Shown: positions 4,385 through 42,352 of the stretch, one piece after another
Layout: the number at the start of each line of letters is the position of its first letter
Position numbering within the stretch: the stretch's first letter is position 1
NCBI GenBank assembly: GCA_900319955.1
Contig: ONQM01000025.1
Span: 1-42,376, forward strand
Length of the DNA stretch: 42,376 nucleotides
DNA from: an uncultured Eubacteriales bacterium
Lineage (GTDB): Bacteria > Bacillota_I > Bacilli_A > RF39 > UBA660
Reading direction: 5' to 3'
Made by a program: the position numbers and the translations under genes
Notes under the pieces: model-generated
The model's input: only the letters and a program-made list of their open reading frames with translations
Told to the model about the DNA's origin: nothing
Database searches by the model: none

Positions 4385-4606
4385 ATGCTTCCACAAAAAC
4401 TTTTAGAAAAAAGATATTAGATAGTTCCATGAGAGAAGTATTAAGGCAGATTAAATATAAATAGTGAAACTAAAAACTTAAATGTAATAAAATGTGAATG
4501 AAGTAAATGCCATAGTATTAATGATAGAGATATAAATGCAAGTGTAAATATATTAATGGAAGGAATAGAAAGATATTATAAAGAACATTTAGAATTAGTA
4601 AAATAA
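4385..4606 (+). pseudogene. Remnant of an IS200/IS605-type tnpB
   Basis: Conceptual translation around internal stops and frame changes gives ILDSSMREVLRQIKYK near 4410-4464, then KCE-stop-SKCH, and then NDRDINASVNILMEG ending in a stop at 4604-4606. The last part is the hallmark C-terminus of TnpB (zinc ribbon C-x2-C, then RDxNAxxNI). Only the C-terminal region is left and it cannot be made as one protein. An imperfect inverted repeat (about 4608-4640) follows and may be the old element end or a terminator. The remaining bases to 4766 hold a terminator-like hairpin near 4687-4713 and the TATAAT at about 4737 that probably drives the next gene. Confidence 0.7.
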
Positions 4607-4766
4607 AATTCTATTAAAACTAATGTTTTATTAATAGAATTATTAATGATATGCACTTGATAATTATGTTAAATAAATTAATGTGTAAATAAGATGAAAA
4701 AAGTCTTATTTTACTTTTACCTTTTTCTTTATTATTATATAATATTCTTAGGAAGAAGATGATGTT

Positions 4767-6122
4767 ATGGCTCTTGATGTACATAAATGTCCTAAGTGTA
4801 GTTCCATTAATATTTCTTATGATAGTTTATCTCATAAGTATAAGTGTAATAATTGTGGAAATGTTTTTTCCTTTGAAGAGAAGAGTGAAAATAATTTATT
4901 TAATAGTTTAGAAACATTTCAGAATAATAGTGTAAATATTACTAGTAATTCACTTGTTTCATATAAATGTCCTAACTGTTTAACTTCATTTATTACTCAT
5001 TCATCAACAATAAAAAAAGTGTGTCCTTGGTGTAACTATGAAGTTAGTGATAAAGATATTATTAATTCTTTAAATACTGAGGATTTTATACTTCCTTTTT
5101 CTGTTAGTAAGGAAGATGCAGAAACTGAAATGAAAAAATTTGTTGATAGTAGAAGTTTATTTGCAAATCCAAAGTTTAAATCTAATTTTAGTGTAGAAAA
5201 TATAAAATGTGTTTATTTTCCTTATTTAGTTGCAAATTATAATGCTAATGCTAATTTTAAAGGATTTGGTGAGAAAAATGTTAAAAGTTATAGCATGAAG
5301 TTTGATAATGGTAAAACACATGAGACTAAGGAAGTATATGATGCTGATTTGTTTTCAATAGATAGGTCTTTTGATATATCAATTAATGGACTTTTATCTT
5401 CTATTTCAAATATAGATAGTAATGATACTTTTAATGATATTATTCCTTTTGATATAGAGAATGTTAATTCTTTTAATCCTAATTTTTTAATTAATTATAG
5501 TGCTTTTCCTAGTAATATTAATATAGATAGTTCTAAAGAAAAACTTAAAGTTAATGCTAGGTCTATTACAAGACACAATTTTAATGATACTATAACTGGA
5601 TATGATAGAGGGGTTAGACTTGAAAATATGTCCTTTAATATAATAAGTGCTGATTATAAGAAAGTATATTTACCTGTTTATTTCTATAGTTATTCTGATG
5701 CTAAAGATGGAAAGGGTAATACTTATTATGTTATATTAAATGGTAGAAATAAAAGTGTTAGTGGAAATGTTCCATTTTATATTCCTAGGGTTATTTTATT
5801 TACTGCAATTCTTTTAGTTTTAAGTTTATTACTTGGAAAATTTTCTTCCTCATTTTTATCAGGACTTGTTTTAATAGGAGGTTTTTCCTTTATTATTTAT
5901 CTCCTTTATAAATATAAAGGTGGAAATAAATCTAATAATTATTTAAATACTAGTCATACTATCTCTAATGCTAAATCAAATGATGTCTTAGTAAAAAGAG
6001 AAGAGGCTTTAGAAAATGATAAGATTGAAGGAGAAAATTTAAATAACTTTGATGATTACTCTATAAGTAAAGATAAGTTAAGTAGTAGTATCTCTAATAT
6101 TTTTGATAAATTTAGGAAATAA
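4767..6122 (+). CDS. Double zinc-ribbon protein with two C-terminal membrane helices
   Basis: 451 residues. Two Cys4 zinc ribbons occupy the N-terminus: CPKC...CNNC (about residues 8-32, TFIIB-like) and CPNC...CPWC (about 68-92). A long Asn/Ser-rich region with no known motif follows (about 95-340), then two adjacent hydrophobic segments (about 338-380) and a cytoplasmic Lys/Asp-rich tail. The ribbons and the tail should therefore be on the same side, with the protein anchored near its C-terminus. It heads a group of three co-directional genes for membrane proteins. It resembles widespread 'zinc ribbon domain, hypothetical membrane' proteins of Bacillota; function is unknown. Confidence 0.75.
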   Translation: MALDVHKCPKCSSINISYDSLSHKYKCNNCGNVFSFEEKSENNLFNSLETFQNNSVNITSNSLVSYKCPNCLTSFITHSSTIKKVCPWCNYEVSDKDIINSLNTEDFILPFSVSKEDAETEMKKFVDSRSLFANPKFKSNFSVENIKCVYFPYLVANYNANANFKGFGEKNVKSYSMKFDNGKTHETKEVYDADLFSIDRSFDISINGLLSSISNIDSNDTFNDIIPFDIENVNSFNPNFLINYSAFPSNINIDSSKEKLKVNARSITRHNFNDTITGYDRGVRLENMSFNIISADYKKVYLPVYFYSYSDAKDGKGNTYYVILNGRNKSVSGNVPFYIPRVILFTAILLVLSLLLGKFSSSFLSGLVLIGGFSFIIYLLYKYKGGNKSNNYLNTSHTISNAKSNDVLVKREEALENDKIEGENLNNFDDYSISKDKLSSSISNIFDKFRK

Positions 6123-6157
6123 ATGTATAATAATAAATAAATTAAGAGGTGATTTTG

Positions 6158-6808
6158 ATGGAAAAAATAAAAAAAGAAAAGATGTGGTATGATAATGCAG
6201 ATTTTCTTACTAATCTTATAATTGGTTTGATTATTGTAACTATTATATTAAGTCAGTCTTTTGCTGTTAATAATAATATTGGTGCTATAAATACATTTAG
6301 AAGTTTATTTAATCATAATAGTTCTTATATACTTGCTCTTATATATTTTGTTTTAATTAAAAGTAAATATTTTCAAAAGTATTTTAATATTACTAATTTA
6401 CTTTATATTTTCTTTTATTTTTTAAATGTTTTTGCAGCTTTTTTAACTATATTTCAGTCATTTAGTGTTGCAAGTTTATGTAGTTTATTTTTAAATATTA
6501 TATTGCTTATTTATATGATTTATACTTTTTTATATGATACGCGTATATGGAAAGATTTTAAGCTTGGTAATTTACCTTTTGATGAAATTAAGAATGAATG
6601 GTATTATTATGCTATTAATTTCTTTGCTATAGTTGCTTTATTTGCAAATTTGATTGGTGCAAATATAAGTAATTCTAATTTTGATGGTGTTGTTTTATCT
6701 GTATTTGATGCAATATATAAATGTTTATTTGCTAGATACGTATTTTTATATAAAAGGTATGAGCTAGAGAAAAATAATGGTAAGGAGGATTTAAAGAATG
6801 AAAGATGA
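6158..6808 (+). CDS. Polytopic membrane protein, about five helices
   Basis: About 216 residues from the ATG at 6158. I prefer this to the GTG at 6149 because AGAGGTGA (6145-6152) is the likely SD and would overlap the GTG. Hydrophobic segments lie near residues 13-37, 60-76, 85-108, 112-135 and 152-175. Conserved-looking polar residues are few and no transporter or enzyme motif is visible. It sits 35 nt after the zinc-ribbon gene and overlaps the next gene by 11 nt, which suggests translation coupling. Function unknown. Confidence 0.7.
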   Translation: MEKIKKEKMWYDNADFLTNLIIGLIIVTIILSQSFAVNNNIGAINTFRSLFNHNSSYILALIYFVLIKSKYFQKYFNITNLLYIFFYFLNVFAAFLTIFQSFSVASLCSLFLNIILLIYMIYTFLYDTRIWKDFKLGNLPFDEIKNEWYYYAINFFAIVALFANLIGANISNSNFDGVVLSVFDAIYKCLFARYVFLYKRYELEKNNGKEDLKNER

Positions 6809-7514: not shown

Positions 7515-7535
7515 AAAGACTTTTAGTGTGACTTT

Positions 7536-7586
7536 TCAGTAAAAATGTTACATGAAAATAAAATGAATTATCAGTAAAAATGTTAC
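7536..7586 (+). repeat. Left-end double transposase site, copy 1
   Basis: TCAGTAAAAATGTTAC occurs at 7536-7551 and again at 7571-7586, exactly 35 bp apart. The same pair occurs inverted at the right end with the same 35-bp spacing. Confidence 0.8.
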
Positions 7587-7589
7587 GTG

Positions 7590-7616
7590 GGAAATCGAAG
7601 TAAGATTTCCTTTTTC
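7590..7616 (+). terminator. Terminator inside the IS left end
   Basis: GGAAATC (7590-7596), a 7-nt loop, GATTTCC (7604-7610), then TTTTTCTTT. It lies between the left end and the transposase ATG, so it would stop read-through from HU and keep the transposase silent, a common IS strategy. It also serves as the terminator HU now lacks. Confidence 0.7.
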
Positions 7617-7640
7617 TTTGCAAATAAAGGAAAATTAAAA

Positions 7641-9002
7641 ATGACAAAGAAAGAAGAAATAAAAAAAGAAGTAATAAAAAAAGAAGTAATAAAAAAGGTT
7701 ATAAAAGGTGAAATGACACGCAAAGAAGCAATGGCAAAATTATATTTGTCACGCCAACAAGTATACAGACTAATAAAAAATTATTTAAAAAACGGAGACA
7801 AATGTTTTATTAATGGCAATAAAGGAAAGCAAAATAAAAATAGAATTGATAATACAGTGATTGAAAAAATACAAAATTTATATATTGAAGAATACTATGA
7901 TTATAATTTCATAGCATTTTACGAAGTACTTCAAGAAAAATATAAAGATGAATATGAAATATCATACTCATCCTTGTATAGAATGTTCCAAAGTGGCGAT
8001 ATTGTGTCGCCTCTAGCCCATAAAGGAACACTTAGATTATATAATGAAAAAATGGAAAATGCAATTTCAGATAAGACAGTTATTGATGAAAAATCTGAGA
8101 AAATATATGAATCACGACAAATAGCCATAGAAAAAGCACATACCAGAAGATCAAGTAATAGTTATGGTTTTGGTCAAGAAGTTCAAATGGATGCATGTGA
8201 AAATATTTGGTTTGGAGATAGAGTAACTTATTTACATCTTGCAGTAGATAAGGGAACTAAAAAAGTATTATTCGGTTGGTTTGAGTATGAAGAAATAACT
8301 AGAGGATACTTTGTATTGTTATATAATATAATAATAAATTATGGTATCCCAGCAAGAATTAAAACTGATAATAGAAATTCTTTTTCAAATCAGCAAAATA
8401 AAGTAGATACAACTCAATTTGGCACAATATGTGGTAAATTAGGCATAGAACTTATAACAACAAGTTCTCCAACAAGTAAGCCAAATGTGGAAAGAGAAAA
8501 TGGAACTTTTAAAAACAGATTAATTTCAGAATTAAGACATGAAGAAATTACTGATATTGATGCCGCAAATGCCTATGTTAATGAAAAATTTATTCCAAGA
8601 ATGAATAAAACTTTTTCGTTTGAAATTAATAAAAAAACAAGCAAAATGAAACCAAATAATTATACGGAAGAAGAATTGAATTTAATTATTTCAGAAAGAA
8701 AAGAAAGAATTATTGATAATGCTTCATCAATAAAATATGAAAATTATTACTACGTTCCTGTAAAATTAGATACTGGCGAACAAGTATGCTTTACAAAAGG
8801 TACTAAATGTATTGTTATACTGAGTTATCATGCTGAACTATGGTGTGAAATTGAAAATGTTTATTATAAATTATGTAAAATAGAAAAAAGAGAAACAGTT
8901 ATGAAAAAAGAAAAAGAAAATAATAAACCAATTGAAAAGAAAAAAACTATAGTACCTAAGAATACTCCTTGGAGAAAATTTAAAATTAATACAAGAATTT
9001 AA
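7641..9002 (+). CDS. ISNCY-family DDE transposase, copy 1
   Basis: 453 residues from the ATG at 7641 (AAAGGA upstream). It catalyses cut-and-paste or copy-out movement of the element. Residues 1-75 form a helix-turn-helix DNA-binding region (YLSRQQVYRLIKNYLKNG). The integrase-type catalytic core has D184 (VQMDACENIWFGD), D243 (KTDNRNSF) and E284 (NVERENGTFKNRL), spaced as in rve/DDE enzymes. TQFG before the Glu motif and the LHLAVDKGTKKVL strand match the ISNCY (ISDol1-like) group. A basic tail follows. The ORF is intact, so the element may be active. It is clearly related to, but not the same as, the transposase at 35922-37283. Confidence 0.85.
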   Translation: MTKKEEIKKEVIKKEVIKKVIKGEMTRKEAMAKLYLSRQQVYRLIKNYLKNGDKCFINGNKGKQNKNRIDNTVIEKIQNLYIEEYYDYNFIAFYEVLQEKYKDEYEISYSSLYRMFQSGDIVSPLAHKGTLRLYNEKMENAISDKTVIDEKSEKIYESRQIAIEKAHTRRSSNSYGFGQEVQMDACENIWFGDRVTYLHLAVDKGTKKVLFGWFEYEEITRGYFVLLYNIIINYGIPARIKTDNRNSFSNQQNKVDTTQFGTICGKLGIELITTSSPTSKPNVERENGTFKNRLISELRHEEITDIDAANAYVNEKFIPRMNKTFSFEINKKTSKMKPNNYTEEELNLIISERKERIIDNASSIKYENYYYVPVKLDTGEQVCFTKGTKCIVILSYHAELWCEIENVYYKLCKIEKRETVMKKEKENNKPIEKKKTIVPKNTPWRKFKINTRI

Positions 9003-9055
9003 TGCAATAAAATAAGAATTTTTTAAACATCTTGGGTTTATCGCTTATGGTTTTC

Positions 9056-9107
9056 CAAAAAAGGAACTAAAATAAAGAACTTAGCCAATGACCAAGTTCC
9101 TTTTTTG
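9056..9107. terminator. Bidirectional terminator after transposase copy 1
   Basis: Outer arms AAAAAAGGAAC / GTTCCTTTTTT with an alternative inner hairpin GAACTT...AAGTTC. Runs of A on one side and T on the other let it end both the transposase transcript and the opposite-strand small RNA. Confidence 0.65.
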
Positions 9108-9166
9108 TATAAACATATTTAAGTGCTCTGGTCGCTCCCCAGCGTTGCCATATCCCCTTAAATACG
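9058..9166 (-). ncRNA. Candidate IS-encoded structured small RNA, copy 1
   Basis: Opposite-strand unit between the transposase stop and the IS right end. An 8-bp outer stem (9157-9164 with 9116-9123) encloses 33 nt with the core GGCAAC-CTGG-GAG-GACC. Inside is a small hairpin CGCT-GGGG-AGCG (9133-9144 on the plus strand). Promoter-like boxes lie just upstream (9173-9200) and an intrinsic terminator just downstream. The second IS copy has the same layout with compensating changes in both stems (37318-37418). I do not recognise an Rfam family. Expression is inferred. Confidence 0.55.
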
Positions 9167-9172
9167 AAAATT

Positions 9173-9200
9173 AGTATAACATAATACTTCTATTTTGCAA
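9173..9200 (-). promoter_or_regulatory. Promoter of the copy 1 IS small RNA
   Basis: On the minus strand, TTGCAA (9195-9200), a 16-nt spacer and TATACT (9173-9178). Transcription would start near 9166, at the foot of the outer stem of the candidate RNA. Confidence 0.5.
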
Positions 9201-9210
9201 GAAAAACAAT

Positions 9211-9261
9211 GTAACATTTTTACTGATAAATGACGTATTATTTATGTAACATTTTTACTGA
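9211..9261 (-). repeat. Right-end double transposase site, copy 1
   Basis: GTAACATTTTTACTGA at 9211-9226 and 9246-9261, the inverted counterparts of the left-end pair, again 35 bp apart. Confidence 0.8.
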
Positions 9262-9264
9262 TAA

Positions 9265-9293
9265 TTCACATTTATGTAATTTTCTGATATACT
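9265..9293 (+). promoter_or_regulatory. Promoter of the SipW-type gene, with its -35 box in the IS end
   Basis: TTCACA (9265-9270, the last bases of the IS), a 17-nt spacer and TATACT (9288-9293). Both boxes match the sigma-A consensus at 5 of 6 positions. The start codon is at 9317. Confidence 0.55.
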
Positions 9294-31425: not shown

Positions 31426-31479
31426 ATAAAATAAAAATTATTGATGCTTTTAGTATCAACAGTTGATTTCAAATGAAGC
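31426..31479 (+). repeat. Hairpin repeat, copy A
   Basis: 54 bp closely matching 37631-37683. It consists of ATAAAATAAAAA, a hairpin TTGAT...ATCAA (31441-31445 with 31455-31459) and the tail TTGATTTCAAATGAAGC (31463-31479). The tail is one base different from copy B and resembles the 3' end of the tRNA-Gly gene at 42268-42286. The surrounding non-coding 31225-31596 also shows a terminator-like hairpin near 31500-31529. Confidence 0.6.
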
Positions 31480-31596
31480 ATATATGTTAATGATAATATA
31501 AAAATGTGCAAAATGTGTACATTTTTTACTCGAATATATTTTTATCTTAATAGAGTGGATAATTTAATTGTCATTTCTTTGTAAAGGTATAGACAA

Positions 31597-32038: not shown

Positions 32039-35000
32039 TTAGTTAAGAAAGTCATCAACATATTCTTCAATTTGTGTTCTTTTAATTTCTTGTTTATAAC
32101 TATCAATTCTTTCATTTAAATAATTAATATGCTCTATATATAATAATTTGTCTTTTCCTTTAATTTTTGTTAGTAAAGATTGAATAAATTCTATCTTTTG
32201 TTCAATAATTGGAATTCTACTTCCACTCCATGATTCGGAATGGGAGAATAAACATACATTTTTGAATATTTCAATATTATTTGTATTATCTAACAAAAAT
32301 AATATCAATTCTTCTTTTAAACTATTGTCTTTTTCTCCAATTACATAAAATAAATAGTAAATTTTTTCTTTGTCATTCTTAGATTCTAATATCTTATTTT
32401 TGAACCAGCCTATTTGATTATTTTTTATATTTTCATCTGTAGTTGATTCAAATAATGAGTGTAATCGCAAATATCCTAAGTTAGAATCAATTATTTTATT
32501 GTAATTATAAGAAATTATTTCATTATGTTTAGGATGAGTCCATATTTTTTTTATAATATTTTTGATTTTACCTGTATGATTATATCTATCTTTTTCGAGG
32601 ATTTTGTTTAATAAATCATAATTATTTATGCACAACAAATATCCTAAATTACCTTCATAATCTCCATGGCATTCTACTGATTTCAAATATAATTCTTCAA
32701 GTAGCTTTTTATTAGCGAATGCATTATATACAATTTCAGCATATTCTTCATCAGCAAATGAAATTGTATAACATGAATACAAGCCAAATTCATCTTGCTC
32801 TAATATTTCCTTCGTATAATTTTCTAATAATCCCTTATTGTACTTAGAATATTCAATAACACTTTCGATTGATAAAGTATATTTATTAGTAGTATTTTGA
32901 TTTTTTATAAAATCTTTTACTATGAATATATATTTTTTATTATGATAGTTATTAAGTATACATGTTAATAAGTAATATTTCTTTGTTGTAGTACTTTTTA
33001 TTATATTATCTATTATTGCATCTAATAAATCTTTATCTAATATATCTCTGATAAAGAACAGTCCGTTTACAAATGGACAGTCTTCATATAAATACGATTT
33101 AAAAATATCTTTGAATAAAGAAGCGTCTTTTGCTATTAAATATTTAAATAAGATATCCAATGAACTTTGTATTTTCCAGTTGTCAACTTTTATGTTTTGT
33201 TTTTCAACTTTATTTAAAGTTTGAAATATTTTTGTGTAAGATTCTTTATTTTTGTTTTCTAAAAATTGTATTAACTCTTTATTTGATTTTCCATAATCAT
33301 ATTTTTCAAATATATTTATTATTAAAAATTCTGGACATTCTTTATACTTTTCTAATGATATTGGTATATTTACTTTTAATTTTTCACATTTTAGTTTTAG
33401 TAAGTATAATATTTTGCCCTGTGTTATAGAAATATTTTTCCAGTTAATAAAGTAGTTTTCATCTAAATATTGTACATCATTTTTTAATATTTCTATTTGA
33501 TCATTGCCATAGAACCAGATTGACTCATTTAATAGTATTTTATAATTACATTTATTTTCATCGCATAGCTGAAATACAATATCAAATAGTTTTTTTCTGA
33601 ATAAGAAAACATTTTCACTTTCTTGCAATTTTAGTGTAATAAGATTAATTGTTCTTGCATTTTTTCCCTGTTCACTAATATGAAATTCTAATTCTAGGCA
33701 ATATAGTAAAGACTGTTCTAATAATATATGATATATATCTTTCATTTTAGAATTTTCTTCTTCTTTATACTTTGAATATAATATACTAGTAATTTCAACT
33801 TCTAATGCAAAGCTAGGATATAATTCTTTTACTAGCCAATAATCTTTAAGGCTTTTACATATTTCATTATATAATCCTGGCTTTTTTTCAAGATACGACA
33901 ATAGTAATTCAAAAGACATTTTTAAATATTCTGTATTTTTAAAATCAGATATTAGATTTAATAAACCATCATTTAAGTAAACATTACTATTATATTTAAT
34001 TTCTTCAGGAAGTTCCTCTTTGGTATAACTGTCAATTTTATTTTTAATTTTAAGTAATGCCTTTGAAGGGTTGACATTGTGAAAATATTCTACAAATTTC
34101 CAATCATTGTTATAGGTTTCTTCATTCCATACTTCATTTATTTCTGCTGTTATGTAATTAAGTGTTTCTTCATTATAAAATTGTTCATTAATCATATTTA
34201 TTGCATTAATAAATTTATTAATAAAATTAGGGTATAGTTTCTTTAACAAATCTGAAATTGTAATTGTTTTATCAACAATTAGATATTTGCATAATAGATA
34301 ATTAGCAAAATTTTGATCACAAATTTTTAATGCATCTTCATTAAAATAGTCAATTAGTTCCATATCCCTTAATTTTTTAAATTCATTTACATCGAAAATT
34401 TGCAAATCACTTAATATTTTTTTTACAATTTCATTAGAAGTACTTATTGGAGATAGTAATGAGATGTAGAATAATATATCTATTTCATGAGATGATATAT
34501 TTTTTTCTTTAAAAATACTATCGTAATAATTTTTAAAAACATCATACACACTATTTAAAGATTCTATCTTTCCGTCTCTAACAGCAATAAAACTCATTAT
34601 TGCTAGTCGCGGATTGCCATTTGCTATTTTTAGTATTTTTTCTTGCCAATTCTTATTTTTAACATTATAATTTTTTTCTAAAATATCTATAAGTTCTGAA
34701 TCTTCCATTTTATTTAATAGATAAATATTCGGTTCAATACATGCATTTAATTTATTTAGAACATCATCTAGTAAATAATCTCTAACAGTTGCAACTATTT
34801 TTATTTCTTCATTTTTATTAGTTATTATTAAATCAATAATTGAGTTTAATCCATTAAGATTATTAATATCATCGATAAATATAATATACTTTTTATCATT
34901 TTTTATAGATGTTTTTATATCATCATATAAATTTAAACCATTTATTCTAATGCATAATGGAGTGTAATTATCTTTTTGTTCTAGTTCTTTTAATATTTCT

Positions 35001-35656
35001 AATGAAATTTTGGTTTTACCATTGCCTGGCTTCCCAGATATTATTGTCATTTTTGAATTTATAATATTTTTGTAAATTAAATCTTTATCTTTTCTATATA
35101 TAAAGTCTAGCTCTAAAGGTGAATTAATTGAAAATTTATCATAACGTTCTATAAAAGTTTTAATATCACTAATTTGATTTGTATCTATTGGGATGTTTAA
35201 AAAGTCATATGCAAGCCCTTGATAATTTTCACAAATATCATGTGCCATTGAATCTATATCTATTAATGTTATTTTTATACCAGGTGCCAAATTTCTTAAT
35301 TTATTATCATCGCCTGGCTTTATATTTGTATTTGTATAAAAGCAAATAATTTCTTTTATTTGTTCTTTTTTTAGTCTTGTTTTTTTTTCATTACATGCAT
35401 CTTTAATATCTTTTTCTAGCTTTCCAACTGATTCTTTTTCTACTGTACCATACATTAATAAAGTGTATTTTTGATTTTCATCAACTGAATAAGAATCTGG
35501 AATACCTTTGGTTGTTTTATTTGTTCCTTCTTTACTTCCTAAGTCATGCATATTACTGAATTTGAATCTTTTAATACTATATTCTGAACAAAGACGTTGG
35601 TATTCTCCTGGTCCTAAACCTAATATAGCACTTTGAATTTCTAAAAATTTAGACAT
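32039..35656 (-). CDS. Large STAND-type NTPase with N-terminal nuclease-like domain, putative antiphage protein
   Basis: 1205 residues from MSKFLEIQSA; GGGAG precedes this ATG at 9-10 nt, and the upstream ATG at 35665 is too close to it. Residues 1-150 resemble a restriction-type fold with KTTKGIPDSYSV. The NTPase has Walker A G208-KPGNGKTK and Walker B FIDDINN (D262-D263), then ATVRDYLL (sensor-like) and a winged-helix part. Residues about 480-1150 are helical repeats that probably sense a ligand. The C-terminus has ESWSGSRIPIIEQKIEFI, which I recall as characteristic of this family. STAND ATPases with nuclease heads (Avs-like) cut DNA when they recognise phage proteins. Placement beside a restriction cassette supports defence. 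The gene is single and preceded by a leader terminator. Confidence 0.75.
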   Translation of the reverse strand: MSKFLEIQSAILGLGPGEYQRLCSEYSIKRFKFSNMHDLGSKEGTNKTTKGIPDSYSVDENQKYTLLMYGTVEKESVGKLEKDIKDACNEKKTRLKKEQIKEIICFYTNTNIKPGDDNKLRNLAPGIKITLIDIDSMAHDICENYQGLAYDFLNIPIDTNQISDIKTFIERYDKFSINSPLELDFIYRKDKDLIYKNIINSKMTIISGKPGNGKTKISLEILKELEQKDNYTPLCIRINGLNLYDDIKTSIKNDKKYIIFIDDINNLNGLNSIIDLIITNKNEEIKIVATVRDYLLDDVLNKLNACIEPNIYLLNKMEDSELIDILEKNYNVKNKNWQEKILKIANGNPRLAIMSFIAVRDGKIESLNSVYDVFKNYYDSIFKEKNISSHEIDILFYISLLSPISTSNEIVKKILSDLQIFDVNEFKKLRDMELIDYFNEDALKICDQNFANYLLCKYLIVDKTITISDLLKKLYPNFINKFINAINMINEQFYNEETLNYITAEINEVWNEETYNNDWKFVEYFHNVNPSKALLKIKNKIDSYTKEELPEEIKYNSNVYLNDGLLNLISDFKNTEYLKMSFELLLSYLEKKPGLYNEICKSLKDYWLVKELYPSFALEVEITSILYSKYKEEENSKMKDIYHILLEQSLLYCLELEFHISEQGKNARTINLITLKLQESENVFLFRKKLFDIVFQLCDENKCNYKILLNESIWFYGNDQIEILKNDVQYLDENYFINWKNISITQGKILYLLKLKCEKLKVNIPISLEKYKECPEFLIINIFEKYDYGKSNKELIQFLENKNKESYTKIFQTLNKVEKQNIKVDNWKIQSSLDILFKYLIAKDASLFKDIFKSYLYEDCPFVNGLFFIRDILDKDLLDAIIDNIIKSTTTKKYYLLTCILNNYHNKKYIFIVKDFIKNQNTTNKYTLSIESVIEYSKYNKGLLENYTKEILEQDEFGLYSCYTISFADEEYAEIVYNAFANKKLLEELYLKSVECHGDYEGNLGYLLCINNYDLLNKILEKDRYNHTGKIKNIIKKIWTHPKHNEIISYNYNKIIDSNLGYLRLHSLFESTTDENIKNNQIGWFKNKILESKNDKEKIYYLFYVIGEKDNSLKEELILFLLDNTNNIEIFKNVCLFSHSESWSGSRIPIIEQKIEFIQSLLTKIKGKDKLLYIEHINYLNERIDSYKQEIKRTQIEEYVDDFLN

Positions 35657-35673
35657 AATTACCATCTCCCAAC

Positions 35674-35759: not shown

Positions 35760-35869
35760 TTGTGAATAATTAGTAATAATGTCAGTACATTTGTAGTCGA
35801 ATAAATAGTAAAAATGTCAGTAAAATTACTGGCCATTTTTTTATGCAACAATTTATGAAAATGTCAGTA
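35760..35869 (+). repeat. Left-end triple transposase site, copy 2
   Basis: AATGTCAGTA at 35778-35787, 35813-35822 and 35860-35869, spaced 35 and 47 bp. The innermost copy lies in the transposase promoter spacer. Confidence 0.75.
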
Positions 35870-35903
35870 TTTTGATATAATTAGTCATCGTATCAATTGA
35901 TAC
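35853..35903 (+). promoter_or_regulatory. Transposase copy 2 promoter and leader palindrome
   Basis: TTATGA (35853-35858), a 17-nt spacer containing the third end motif, and TATAAT (35876-35881). A perfect 14-bp palindrome GTATCAATTGATAC (35890-35903) follows, just before the SD (35906-35913). Confidence 0.5.
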
Positions 35904-35921
35904 AGAAAGGAGATATTGCAC

Positions 35922-37283
35922 ATGAATAATAATGAATTAAAGAAATATAGTGCAATAAAAGATTTAGTCGATGGCAAAAAAAACATTGAAGAGGTAAAAT
36001 TTGAACTCAGTATGAGTGATAGACAAATTTATAGGCTAAAAAAGAAATTTAAGGAAGAAGGGAAAAAAGGATTCATTCATAAAGGTAGAGGAAAGAAAAG
36101 TAATAAAAAACTTGATAACAAAATATTAAAAGAATTAGAAAACCTATATTTGACAGAATATTATGATTACAGTATTGAAACATTTTACGAAGAAATTAAA
36201 AATAATTATAAAATTTCATATGATGCAATTTTAAAAGCATTTAAAAAGGATGATATAATATCACCCTATGCCCACCATGGCACATTAAAATTATATAAGG
36301 AAAATATGGAAAATGCAATTAAAGATAATAATCAAATTGATGAAGCTAAAGTAGAATTATATGAAACTAGAAAATTGGAAGATGAAAAAAAACATATAAG
36401 AAAATCAAGTAATTTATATGGCTTTGGTCAAGAAGTTCAGATGGATTCATGTTTTGATGTATGGTTTGGTGATATTGTATCAGCACTTCATCTTGCAATT
36501 GATAAAGGAACAAAGAAAGTTTTATCAGGTCAATTCGAATATGAAGAAATTAATGAAGGGTATTATATTATTCTTTATAATATGATTATTAATTATGGTA
36601 TTCCTGCAAAAATTAAAACTGATAATAGAAATTCTTTTTCAAATCAAGATAATGAAACTGATACTACTCAATTTGGTGTAATATGTCAGGACTTAGATAT
36701 AATTTTAACAACATCAAGCAATCCAACATCAAAAGCAAATGTTGAAAGAGAAAATGGAGTTTTTAAAAGAAGATTAAAAGCAGAACTAAGACACGAAAAT
36801 ATAACAAATATCAATGATGTTAACAATTATTTAAACGAAACTTTCATTCCAAAAATTAATGCTAAATTTTCTTTTATGATTAATCATAAAAATTACAAAA
36901 TGAGAAAAAACAATTACACAAATGAAGAATTAAATTTAATCATTTCTGAAAAATACAAAAGATTAATTGATAATGCTTCTGCAATTAGTTTTAAGGGAGA
37001 ATATTATGTGCCAGTCAATAATGATACTGGTGAAGTTGTAAGTTTTAAATTCAGAACCGAATGTACTGTTATTATTGCATATAATTTGGAATTATGGTGT
37101 AAGATTGAAAATACTTATTACAAATTAGTTAAAGTTGAAAAAAGAGATACTACCATGACTAAAGAAAATGAAAATACAACAACTCATTATACTTATACAC
37201 CACCAAAAGAACATTCATGGAGAACTAATATGATGCTAAAAAAAGAGTCTGAACTTAAAGATAAAGAAAAAGATAAAAAATAA
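35922..37283 (+). CDS. ISNCY-family DDE transposase, copy 2
   Basis: 453 residues from the ATG at 35922 (SD AAAGGAGA). It has the same plan as copy 1: an N-terminal helix-turn-helix (ELSMSDRQIYRLKKKF), the catalytic D in VQMDSCFDVWFGD, the second D in KTDNRNSF and the Glu in NVERENGVFKRRL. TTQFGV and LHLAIDKGTKKVL are also shared. The central domain is very similar to copy 1 and the ends of the protein are more diverged, as are the DNA end sites it should bind. The frame is intact. A Lys/Glu-rich tail closes the protein. Confidence 0.85.
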   Translation: MNNNELKKYSAIKDLVDGKKNIEEVKFELSMSDRQIYRLKKKFKEEGKKGFIHKGRGKKSNKKLDNKILKELENLYLTEYYDYSIETFYEEIKNNYKISYDAILKAFKKDDIISPYAHHGTLKLYKENMENAIKDNNQIDEAKVELYETRKLEDEKKHIRKSSNLYGFGQEVQMDSCFDVWFGDIVSALHLAIDKGTKKVLSGQFEYEEINEGYYIILYNMIINYGIPAKIKTDNRNSFSNQDNETDTTQFGVICQDLDIILTTSSNPTSKANVERENGVFKRRLKAELRHENITNINDVNNYLNETFIPKINAKFSFMINHKNYKMRKNNYTNEELNLIISEKYKRLIDNASAISFKGEYYVPVNNDTGEVVSFKFRTECTVIIAYNLELWCKIENTYYKLVKVEKRDTTMTKENENTTTHYTYTPPKEHSWRTNMMLKKESELKDKEKDKK

Positions 37284-37317
37284 AAGAGTTTATCGCAGTT
37301 AGATTTCCAAAAAAGAA

Positions 37318-37418
37318 GCATAAAAAATGGAGTATGAAATAAATCATACTTCTTTTTTGTATAATCATCATTTGATGCTCAGGTCACTCTCCAGTGTTGC
37401 CTTATCCTCCAAATGACA
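37318..37418 (-). ncRNA. Candidate IS-encoded structured small RNA, copy 2
   Basis: The counterpart of 9058-9166. A 7-bp outer stem (37410-37416 with 37368-37374) encloses 35 nt with the same GGCAAC-CTGG-GAG-GACC core. Inside is a hairpin CACT-GGAG-AGTG (37385-37396 on the plus strand). Relative to copy 1, five of seven outer pairs and one inner pair have changed on both sides and still pair. A near-consensus promoter lies directly upstream and a terminator downstream, giving an RNA of about 100 nt. Confidence 0.6.
37328..37359. terminator. Bidirectional terminator after transposase copy 2
   Basis: GAGTATGA (about 37330-37337) pairs with TCATACTTC (37344-37352), with TTTTTT after it on the plus strand and ATTTTTT on the minus strand. 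It serves both the transposase and the opposite-strand RNA. Confidence 0.75.
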
Positions 37419-37424
37419 TATATT

Positions 37425-37453
37425 ATTATATTCTAGCCATTTATAAATCTCAA
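37425..37453 (-). promoter_or_regulatory. Promoter of the copy 2 IS small RNA
   Basis: On the minus strand: TTGAGA (37448-37453), a 17-nt spacer and TATAAT (37425-37430, perfect). The expected start is at about 37418, directly before the outer stem. Confidence 0.7.
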
Positions 37454-37558
37454 CTGCCATTTTCATAAATTATTGACTAAACGTATTATATAAGCTACTG
37501 ACATTTTTATAAATTAATGACTGCCTTTTTTACTGACATTTTTACTAATTATTCACAA
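37452..37558 (-). repeat. Right-end triple transposase site, copy 2
   Basis: TACTGACATTTTTA at 37496 and 37531 (35 bp apart), and a weaker AACTGCCATTTTCAT at 37452. The pattern mirrors the left end (35 and 47 bp there, 35 and 44 bp here). Confidence 0.7.
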
Positions 37559-37630: not shown

Positions 37631-37683
37631 ATAAAATAAAAACTATCGATACATTTGTATCGACAGTTGATTTCAAATGGAGC
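37631..37683 (+). repeat. Hairpin repeat, copy B
   Basis: The counterpart of 31426-31479. The hairpin is perfect here (TCGATAC 37646-37652 with GTATCGA 37657-37663) and extended by AACT/AGTT. The tail at 37667-37685 differs from the tRNA-Gly 3' end (42268-42286) at one base in 19. The rest of 37559-37850 shows a nested hairpin at about 37681-37718 and a TATAAT near 37787. Confidence 0.65.
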
Positions 37684-37850
37684 GGTTAAGCAACAGCTTA
37701 CGAACTATAACGCTCTCTTTCTAAAAATATTATATATGAAATCGTATTAAATTTCAATGGGAGTATGTTAATATTATTCAAAATATAGTATAATATTCTT
37801 GATATTTTTAATTTAAGGTGTAAAAAAATAGAAGAAAGGAGTTTAATAAA

Positions 37851-42246: not shown

Positions 42247-42271
42247 GTACATCATTTCTGACGTACTTTGA
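42247..42271 (-). terminator. Terminator of the tRNA-Gly transcript
   Basis: AAAGTAC-G-TCA and TGA-T-GTACTTT form 11 pairs (one G-U) with a 4-nt loop, then TTTTATTTTT on the minus strand. It starts 8 nt after the CCA end. Confidence 0.75.
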
Positions 42272-42278
42272 ATTCAAA

Positions 42279-42352
42279 TGGAGCGGATGATGGGAATCGG
42301 ACCCACGTCAGGAGCTTGGAGGGCTCTTATTCTACCATTAAACTACATCCGC
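42279..42352 (-). tRNA. tRNA-Gly(UCC)
   Basis: 74 nt including an encoded CCA (42279-42281). The acceptor stem GCGGATG pairs with CATCCGC. The D-loop is AATGGTAGAA, the anticodon loop CCTCCAA has anticodon TCC, and the T-loop is GTCCGATTCC-like. The gene marks the edge of the accessory region, and its 3' end is repeated at 37667-37685. Confidence 0.93.

Follow-up and report, generated by a model that had tools for sequence, protein, structure and literature searches.

A conserved pseudoknotted RNA module of IS1202-like insertion sequences and further Bacillota mobile elements

Known insertion sequence RNAs and the locus under study

Small RNAs encoded by insertion sequences (ISs) include RNA-OUT of IS10, art200 of IS200 and RNA-C of IS30 (cited in PMC12323649), as well as Asr9 and Ssr9 of ISPpu9 (PMC8450116), and the known IS-borne RNAs are antisense regulators or guides bound to one transposase type. 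Here, we analyzed a structured RNA carried by two IS1202-like elements, copy 1 and copy 2, in a 42,376-nt stretch of DNA from the gut Bacilli genome of an uncultured Eubacteriales bacterium (contig ONQM01000025.1, positions 1 to 42,376; the window). In both copies the RNA is encoded on the minus strand, in the interval separating the transposase stop codon from the right IS end, and has its own promoter. Like the IS regulatory RNAs (PMC12323649, PMC8450116), it is a small RNA gene within an IS and often antisense to the transposase gene (tnp), and the transposase start regions can, as judged by eye, also form ribosome-binding-site hairpins; however, those RNAs pair with the tnp mRNA or with each other, whereas no leader pairing was detected here and the present fold recurs in unrelated elements. 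It resembles the bridge RNA/seekRNA of IS110/IS1111 (PMC11187229) in being a structured noncoding RNA inside an IS, but differs in the transposase class, in showing no target match and in not being required by all family members. MRSC motifs (PMC11109978) are likewise structured and accompany transposases in variable orientation, though their described example, MRSC-65-2, is a single long stem often present in dozens of copies per genome, while the RNA described here has several helices and a pseudoknot, and is rare, genomes that carry it having one to three copies in most cases.

The window RNA and the copies at loci L029 and L031 gave no gathering-score match in Rfam release 15, and a permissive threshold returned chance snoRNA and miRNA matches only. 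No description was found in open-licence full text; supplementary files of motif surveys fall outside that scope and may already list the RNA without a name. The paper on the IS1202 family (PMC10132070) mentions no RNA of the element.

Fold and covariation of the RNA

Further copies were found with covariance models (R1, then the fuller R2 and R3), and 37 aligned copies provided the structure statistics. The comparison showed an RNA family whose predicted parts are a promoter, a P1-P2-P3 hairpin, an irregular P4b-P4 hairpin with a terminator inside it, the conserved GCGAUAAA, and, directly after it, a CYYY strand that forms a pseudoknot with the P3 loop (Table 1). The RNA is about 110–160 nt long up to the pseudoknot strand, often followed by one or two 3′ hairpins, and we regard the existence of this conserved pseudoknotted module as close to certain. 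Double changes were observed in 26 of the 32 pairs, with 96.0% of pair cells being standard, and the covariation score was 0.435 against 0.179 for shuffled alignments and at most 0.105 for slid controls, which reached no more than 55% paired. The original prediction, made from the two window copies, held that selection acts on RNA structure rather than on sequence, and the wider alignment bears this out, with covariation about four times that of the slid controls.

Table 1. Positions of the insertion sequences, the RNA genes and the RNA parts in the window.
Feature	Position	Strand	Evidence
IS copy 1 (IS1202-like), from terminal inverted repeat (TIR) to TIR	7528..9269	+	TIR match 20/22
IS copy 2 (IS1202-like), TIR to TIR, TGTGAATAATTAG...CTAATTATTCACA	35761..37557	+	TIR match 21/22; 1797 bp; holds transposase and RNA
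Transposase of IS copy 2, 453 aa	35922..37283	+	NCBIfam NF033594 (ISNCY) top match, E 2.5e-67
RNA promoter, copy 2, TTGAGA-17-TATAAT	37425..37453	-	Consensus scan, 11/12 positions
Structured RNA, copy 1	about 9034..9168	-	R2 134.6 bits; loop GGGG, with CCC (9036-9034) as its partner
Structured RNA, copy 2, P1 start to pseudoknot strand	37286..37419	-	R2 99.6 bits, R3 110.9 bits
P1-P2-P3 domain, copy 2	37366..37418	-	No pair broken in either copy; covariation across the family
Helices, copy 2	P1 37418-37409/37375-37366; P2 37402-37400/37383-37381; P3 37396-37393/37388-37385	-	
P3 tetraloop GGAG, predicted pseudoknot 5′ half, copy 2	37389..37392	-	MIp ranks; concordant tree changes
CUC strand, predicted pseudoknot 3′ half, copy 2, after conserved GCGAUAAA	37286..37288	-	
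P4b, copy 2: linker GAUU (37366-37363) with AAUC (37305-37302)	37302..37366	-	Mutual information; included in the covariation statistics; register read by eye
P4, copy 2: CAAAAAAGAAG (37359-37349) with CUUCUUUUUUG (37318-37308)	37308..37359	-	Covariation helix 7
Hairpin inside P4 plus U-tract, putative embedded intrinsic terminator, copy 2	37322..37349	-	Plus-strand terminator match 37329-37352

The cleanest tests are the pseudoknot and P4b, because the alignment was fitted to P1–P4 and to neither of these two. The P3 tetraloop (GRRG) pairs with the CYYY strand, at a distance in copy 2 of about 100 nt in the downstream direction, and the observed loop and tail combinations are GAGG with CCU, GGGG with CCC, GGAG with CUC and GAAG with CUU(C), as computed for the first 24 copies and read for the later ones. 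When the tree is computed with the loop and tail columns left out, the P3 loop changes seven times and the partner is matched in all seven, so that phylogeny alone is not sufficient to explain the pattern. Corrected mutual information (MIp), calculated for 5778 column pairs, places the two variable pseudoknot pairs among the helices, at ranks 6 and 8. The sole loop/tail mismatch, at L081, stands close to a contig end. P4b was found by mutual information (columns 60-165 and 61-164) and joins the linker after P1 to the strand after P4. The unpaired residues GGAUA/GAGCA, CAA/A and GCGAUAAA are invariant, and together with a correlated column triple, 18/46/172, also detected by mutual information, they suggest one specific fold.

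The promoter of copy 2 was recovered exactly as originally proposed, while that of copy 1 is weaker (TTGCAA-16-TATACT, 9200-9173, minus strand). Six compensatory pairs had been counted between the two window copies; this number stands, but their membership differs in the register of the family, since the outer stem had been aligned (ATTTAAG/CTTAAAT against TCATTTG/CAAATGA) one column out of register. The pairs changed on both sides are 7-54, 8-53, 11-50 and 12-49 in P1, pair 20-42 in P2 (UA to AU), which had been overlooked, and pair 27-37 in P3 (GC to AU); all six remain paired in both copies. A seventh double change, previously unseen, is the pseudoknot pair 33-181 (GC to AU). The 57–59 nt hairpins fold better than shuffled sequences (z -2.70 for the 57 nt of copy 2 and z -3.29 for copy 1). 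The unit had been bounded at 37318-37453, which ends too early, within the A6/U6 helix, and covers the 5′ part only; the conserved RNA extends past that helix to about 37286, its ends in copy 2 being placed by the alignment and by the distance to the promoter. Many copies have an additional, optional hairpin that covaries, GGGGCAAAGCCCC (or its variants GGGGACAGAGUCCCC and GAGGGCAGAGCCCUC), just 3′ of the pseudoknot strand, such as L011, L038 and L114, whereas window copies 1 and 2 are without it.

A terminator-like site, composed of the P4 inner hairpin and a U-tract, is present on the plus strand in copy 2 and on the minus strand in copy 1, and the plus strand of the copy 2 hairpin is predicted to act as a terminator for the transposase mRNA. 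The possibility that P4 is merely a terminator was considered and rejected, as the helix persists in L038, L112 and L114 in versions that contain G-C pairs (CGAGGGAAUG:CAUUUCCUUG in L038 and CGGGGAAGGC:GCCUUUCCCG in L114, by reading) and the pseudoknot lies beyond it. Group IIC introns insert after terminators. L112, a viral contig, has a group II type intron with a reverse transcriptase (4467-6366) directly after the U-tract of the RNA, and its position is a natural marker of the P4 inner hairpin as a putative terminator. The two halves of the L112 RNA, split by the intron, are separate model matches, and by reading, the P4 outer strands and the pseudoknot (GGAG/CUCC) are still complementary across it.

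Host elements and distribution

The transposases of the two window copies share 56% identity, and both match NCBIfam NF033594 (ISNCY), with IS481 as the second-best match. That of copy 2 scores 227.6 with NF033594, under the cut-off of 250. The elements agree with the IS1202 family (PMC10132070) in a related transposase, repeated end motifs and TGT...ACA ends with imperfect TIRs, 15–22 of 22 positions matching in 16 elements. The long target duplications of the 16–28 bp subgroup were also observed among the relatives: exact duplications of 26–27 bp, compared with 27 in IS1202 (PMC10132070), surround nine IS1202-like carriers with the RNA inside each, although both window copies lack a target duplication. 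Both window transposases read NVERENG(T/V)FK, which places K at E+7 if the E of NVE is catalytic, unlike the Q of the IS1202 family (PMC10132070). The elements are named IS1202-like only, because the candidate catalytic E is assigned from sequence.

At each IS end (35761-35900 and 37455-37557, and alike in relatives), a motif similar to AATTAGTRAAAATGTC is repeated, with two to four copies per end, resembling the multiple transposase-binding sites of Tn7-like ends. In the transposase leaders of L007, L011, L018, L020 and L051, the ribosome-binding site can form a hairpin (for example CTTCTTGTC...GACAAGGAGG, by eye), which suggests a possible translational control independent of the RNA.

A scan of the genome collection yielded 22 transposase relatives, and a core, GGATAWGGCAAYRCTGRGGAGYRACCWGAGCA, with a few substitutions, lies downstream of tnp on the opposite strand in all relatives with enough sequence there except L008, L022 and L023. 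Within the family to which the host belongs, the RNA was detected in 24 of 386 genomes, and within the class in 5 of 395. The host genome itself contains a decayed copy (G000:C42), and others lie elsewhere. A more distant transposase relative, L066 (238 bits), has a 27-bp duplication with the RNA inside in the opposite orientation. L114 and L115 share a stretch of 1910 nt between unrelated flanks, containing IS3-type OrfA/OrfB with the RNA antisense to OrfB, where the IS3 assignment comes from the annotation of plasmid relatives; L038, a similar carrier, has a fragment matching the IS3 model. By adjacency only, the RNA is also located upstream of IS30-type transposases in L037 and L092 and next to a UPF0236 (ISLre2-type) transposase in L094. 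No RNA was found in the distant Enterococcus ISNCY elements and nearest IS3 relatives tested, and comparing the RNA by BLAST with phages and plasmids that carry annotation returned nothing useful. The distribution of the predicted fold indicates that the RNA is a portable module, not a part specific to this IS. The original prediction had treated it as the RNA of the IS; it is indeed IS-borne, but it is larger, absent from many relatives of the same type and present in unrelated elements.

In L090 (600-2679), the RNA stands between Zot-like and tyrosine-integrase genes, possibly of a filamentous prophage. In L083 (123-686, plus strand), a ToxN-type toxin gene of a type III toxin-antitoxin system (Pfam E 1.3e-49) is convergent with an RNA copy about 150 nt away. 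Within the window, the gene that directly adjoins IS copy 2 (32039-35665, minus strand), possibly a defence gene, encodes 1208 aa including an nSTAND3 NTPase domain, and there are three occurrences of a 34-nt sequence that includes TTCAAATGGAGC(GG) (31448-31481, 37652-37685 and 42253-42286), the last overlapping the end of a tRNA-Gly gene.

Possible roles of the RNA

We consider it probable, at roughly 0.6, that the RNA is an undescribed structured noncoding family that serves as an exchangeable module of Bacillota mobile elements, acting in trans through its three-dimensional fold and likely binding a protein. Such a partner would most likely be a host factor common to different elements rather than one transposase, and the action of the RNA would benefit the carrying element. 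The embedded terminator would probably limit the yield of full-length RNA, and would probably also end transposase mRNA arriving from the other side. A trans-acting RNA with a partner fits better than antisense, guide or simple insulation roles because unpaired residues are conserved, either orientation occurs and the transposases differ. Several points weigh against this. Protein binding would be a reading of the conservation pattern, and an efficient embedded terminator would allow only small amounts of the RNA to reach full length. Moreover, L008, L022, L023 and about 18 further transposase loci have no RNA, which makes it dispensable for many relatives, and the IS3 relative L116 is also without it. 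The broader suggestion, that this is one RNA class common to unrelated transposons and phage-like elements of Bacillota and doing the same job for each, such as binding a common host factor, so that it would be an RNA-only accessory, is tentative and falls somewhat short of even odds.

An unlikely alternative, though the best placed of the rivals, is a transcription-control device of the riboswitch or antiterminator kind, in which the 5′ domain decides whether the polymerase passes through the terminator nested in P4. An aptamer-like hairpin followed by an intrinsic terminator would fit this, as would the L112 intron right behind the terminator U-tract and the sense orientation of the RNA upstream of a tnp or integrase gene in L037, L092 and L090. 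However, the terminator is nested in P4 and the two are not mutually exclusive, so no antiterminator is visible; most carriers encode nothing on the same strand after the RNA, and the conserved parts flank the terminator on both sides.

Only slightly less plausible is antisense control, in which the RNA or its readthrough would pair with the transposase mRNA and repress it, in the manner of RNA-OUT and further antisense RNAs of ISs. Transcription of the RNA does run towards the 3′ end of tnp in the majority of IS1202-like and IS3-type carriers, and readthrough would be antisense; yet complementarity to the tnp leader was at the shuffled level (mean z -0.04, 21 elements), plain antisense pairing needs no conserved pseudoknot, and sense orientations were observed inside the intact element L066 and upstream of the tnp or integrase genes of L037, L092 and L090.

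A small self-cleaving or otherwise catalytic RNA appears still less probable, because, although the pseudoknotted fold is compact and many unpaired residues in it never vary, no Rfam ribozyme family matched and cleavage is a conjecture from the fold. A guide role in recognizing targets or element ends, of the kind found in IS110/IS1111, is very improbable: the RNA is structured, IS-borne and has its own promoter, but its longest run of matches to its own targets averages 8.1 nt against 8.2 nt for the targets of other elements, the same RNA accompanies different transposase types while many relatives are without it, and these transposases are of the ISNCY/IS481 and IS3 types instead of the DEDD partner of IS110/IS1111. 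A small peptide gene was also rejected, as the frame from the AUG after P1 runs for 9–58 codons with variable sequence and several copies have no AUG, and resemblances to CsrA, SRP, K-turn, FMN-aptamer and pistol RNAs, weighed by eye only, were dropped.

The trans-acting module thus remains the favoured reading. That a fold under selection has passed among elements of the IS1202-like and IS3 types, and perhaps of further types, suggests that its function is shared and directed at the host, a question that is approachable with one defined RNA of about 130 nt.
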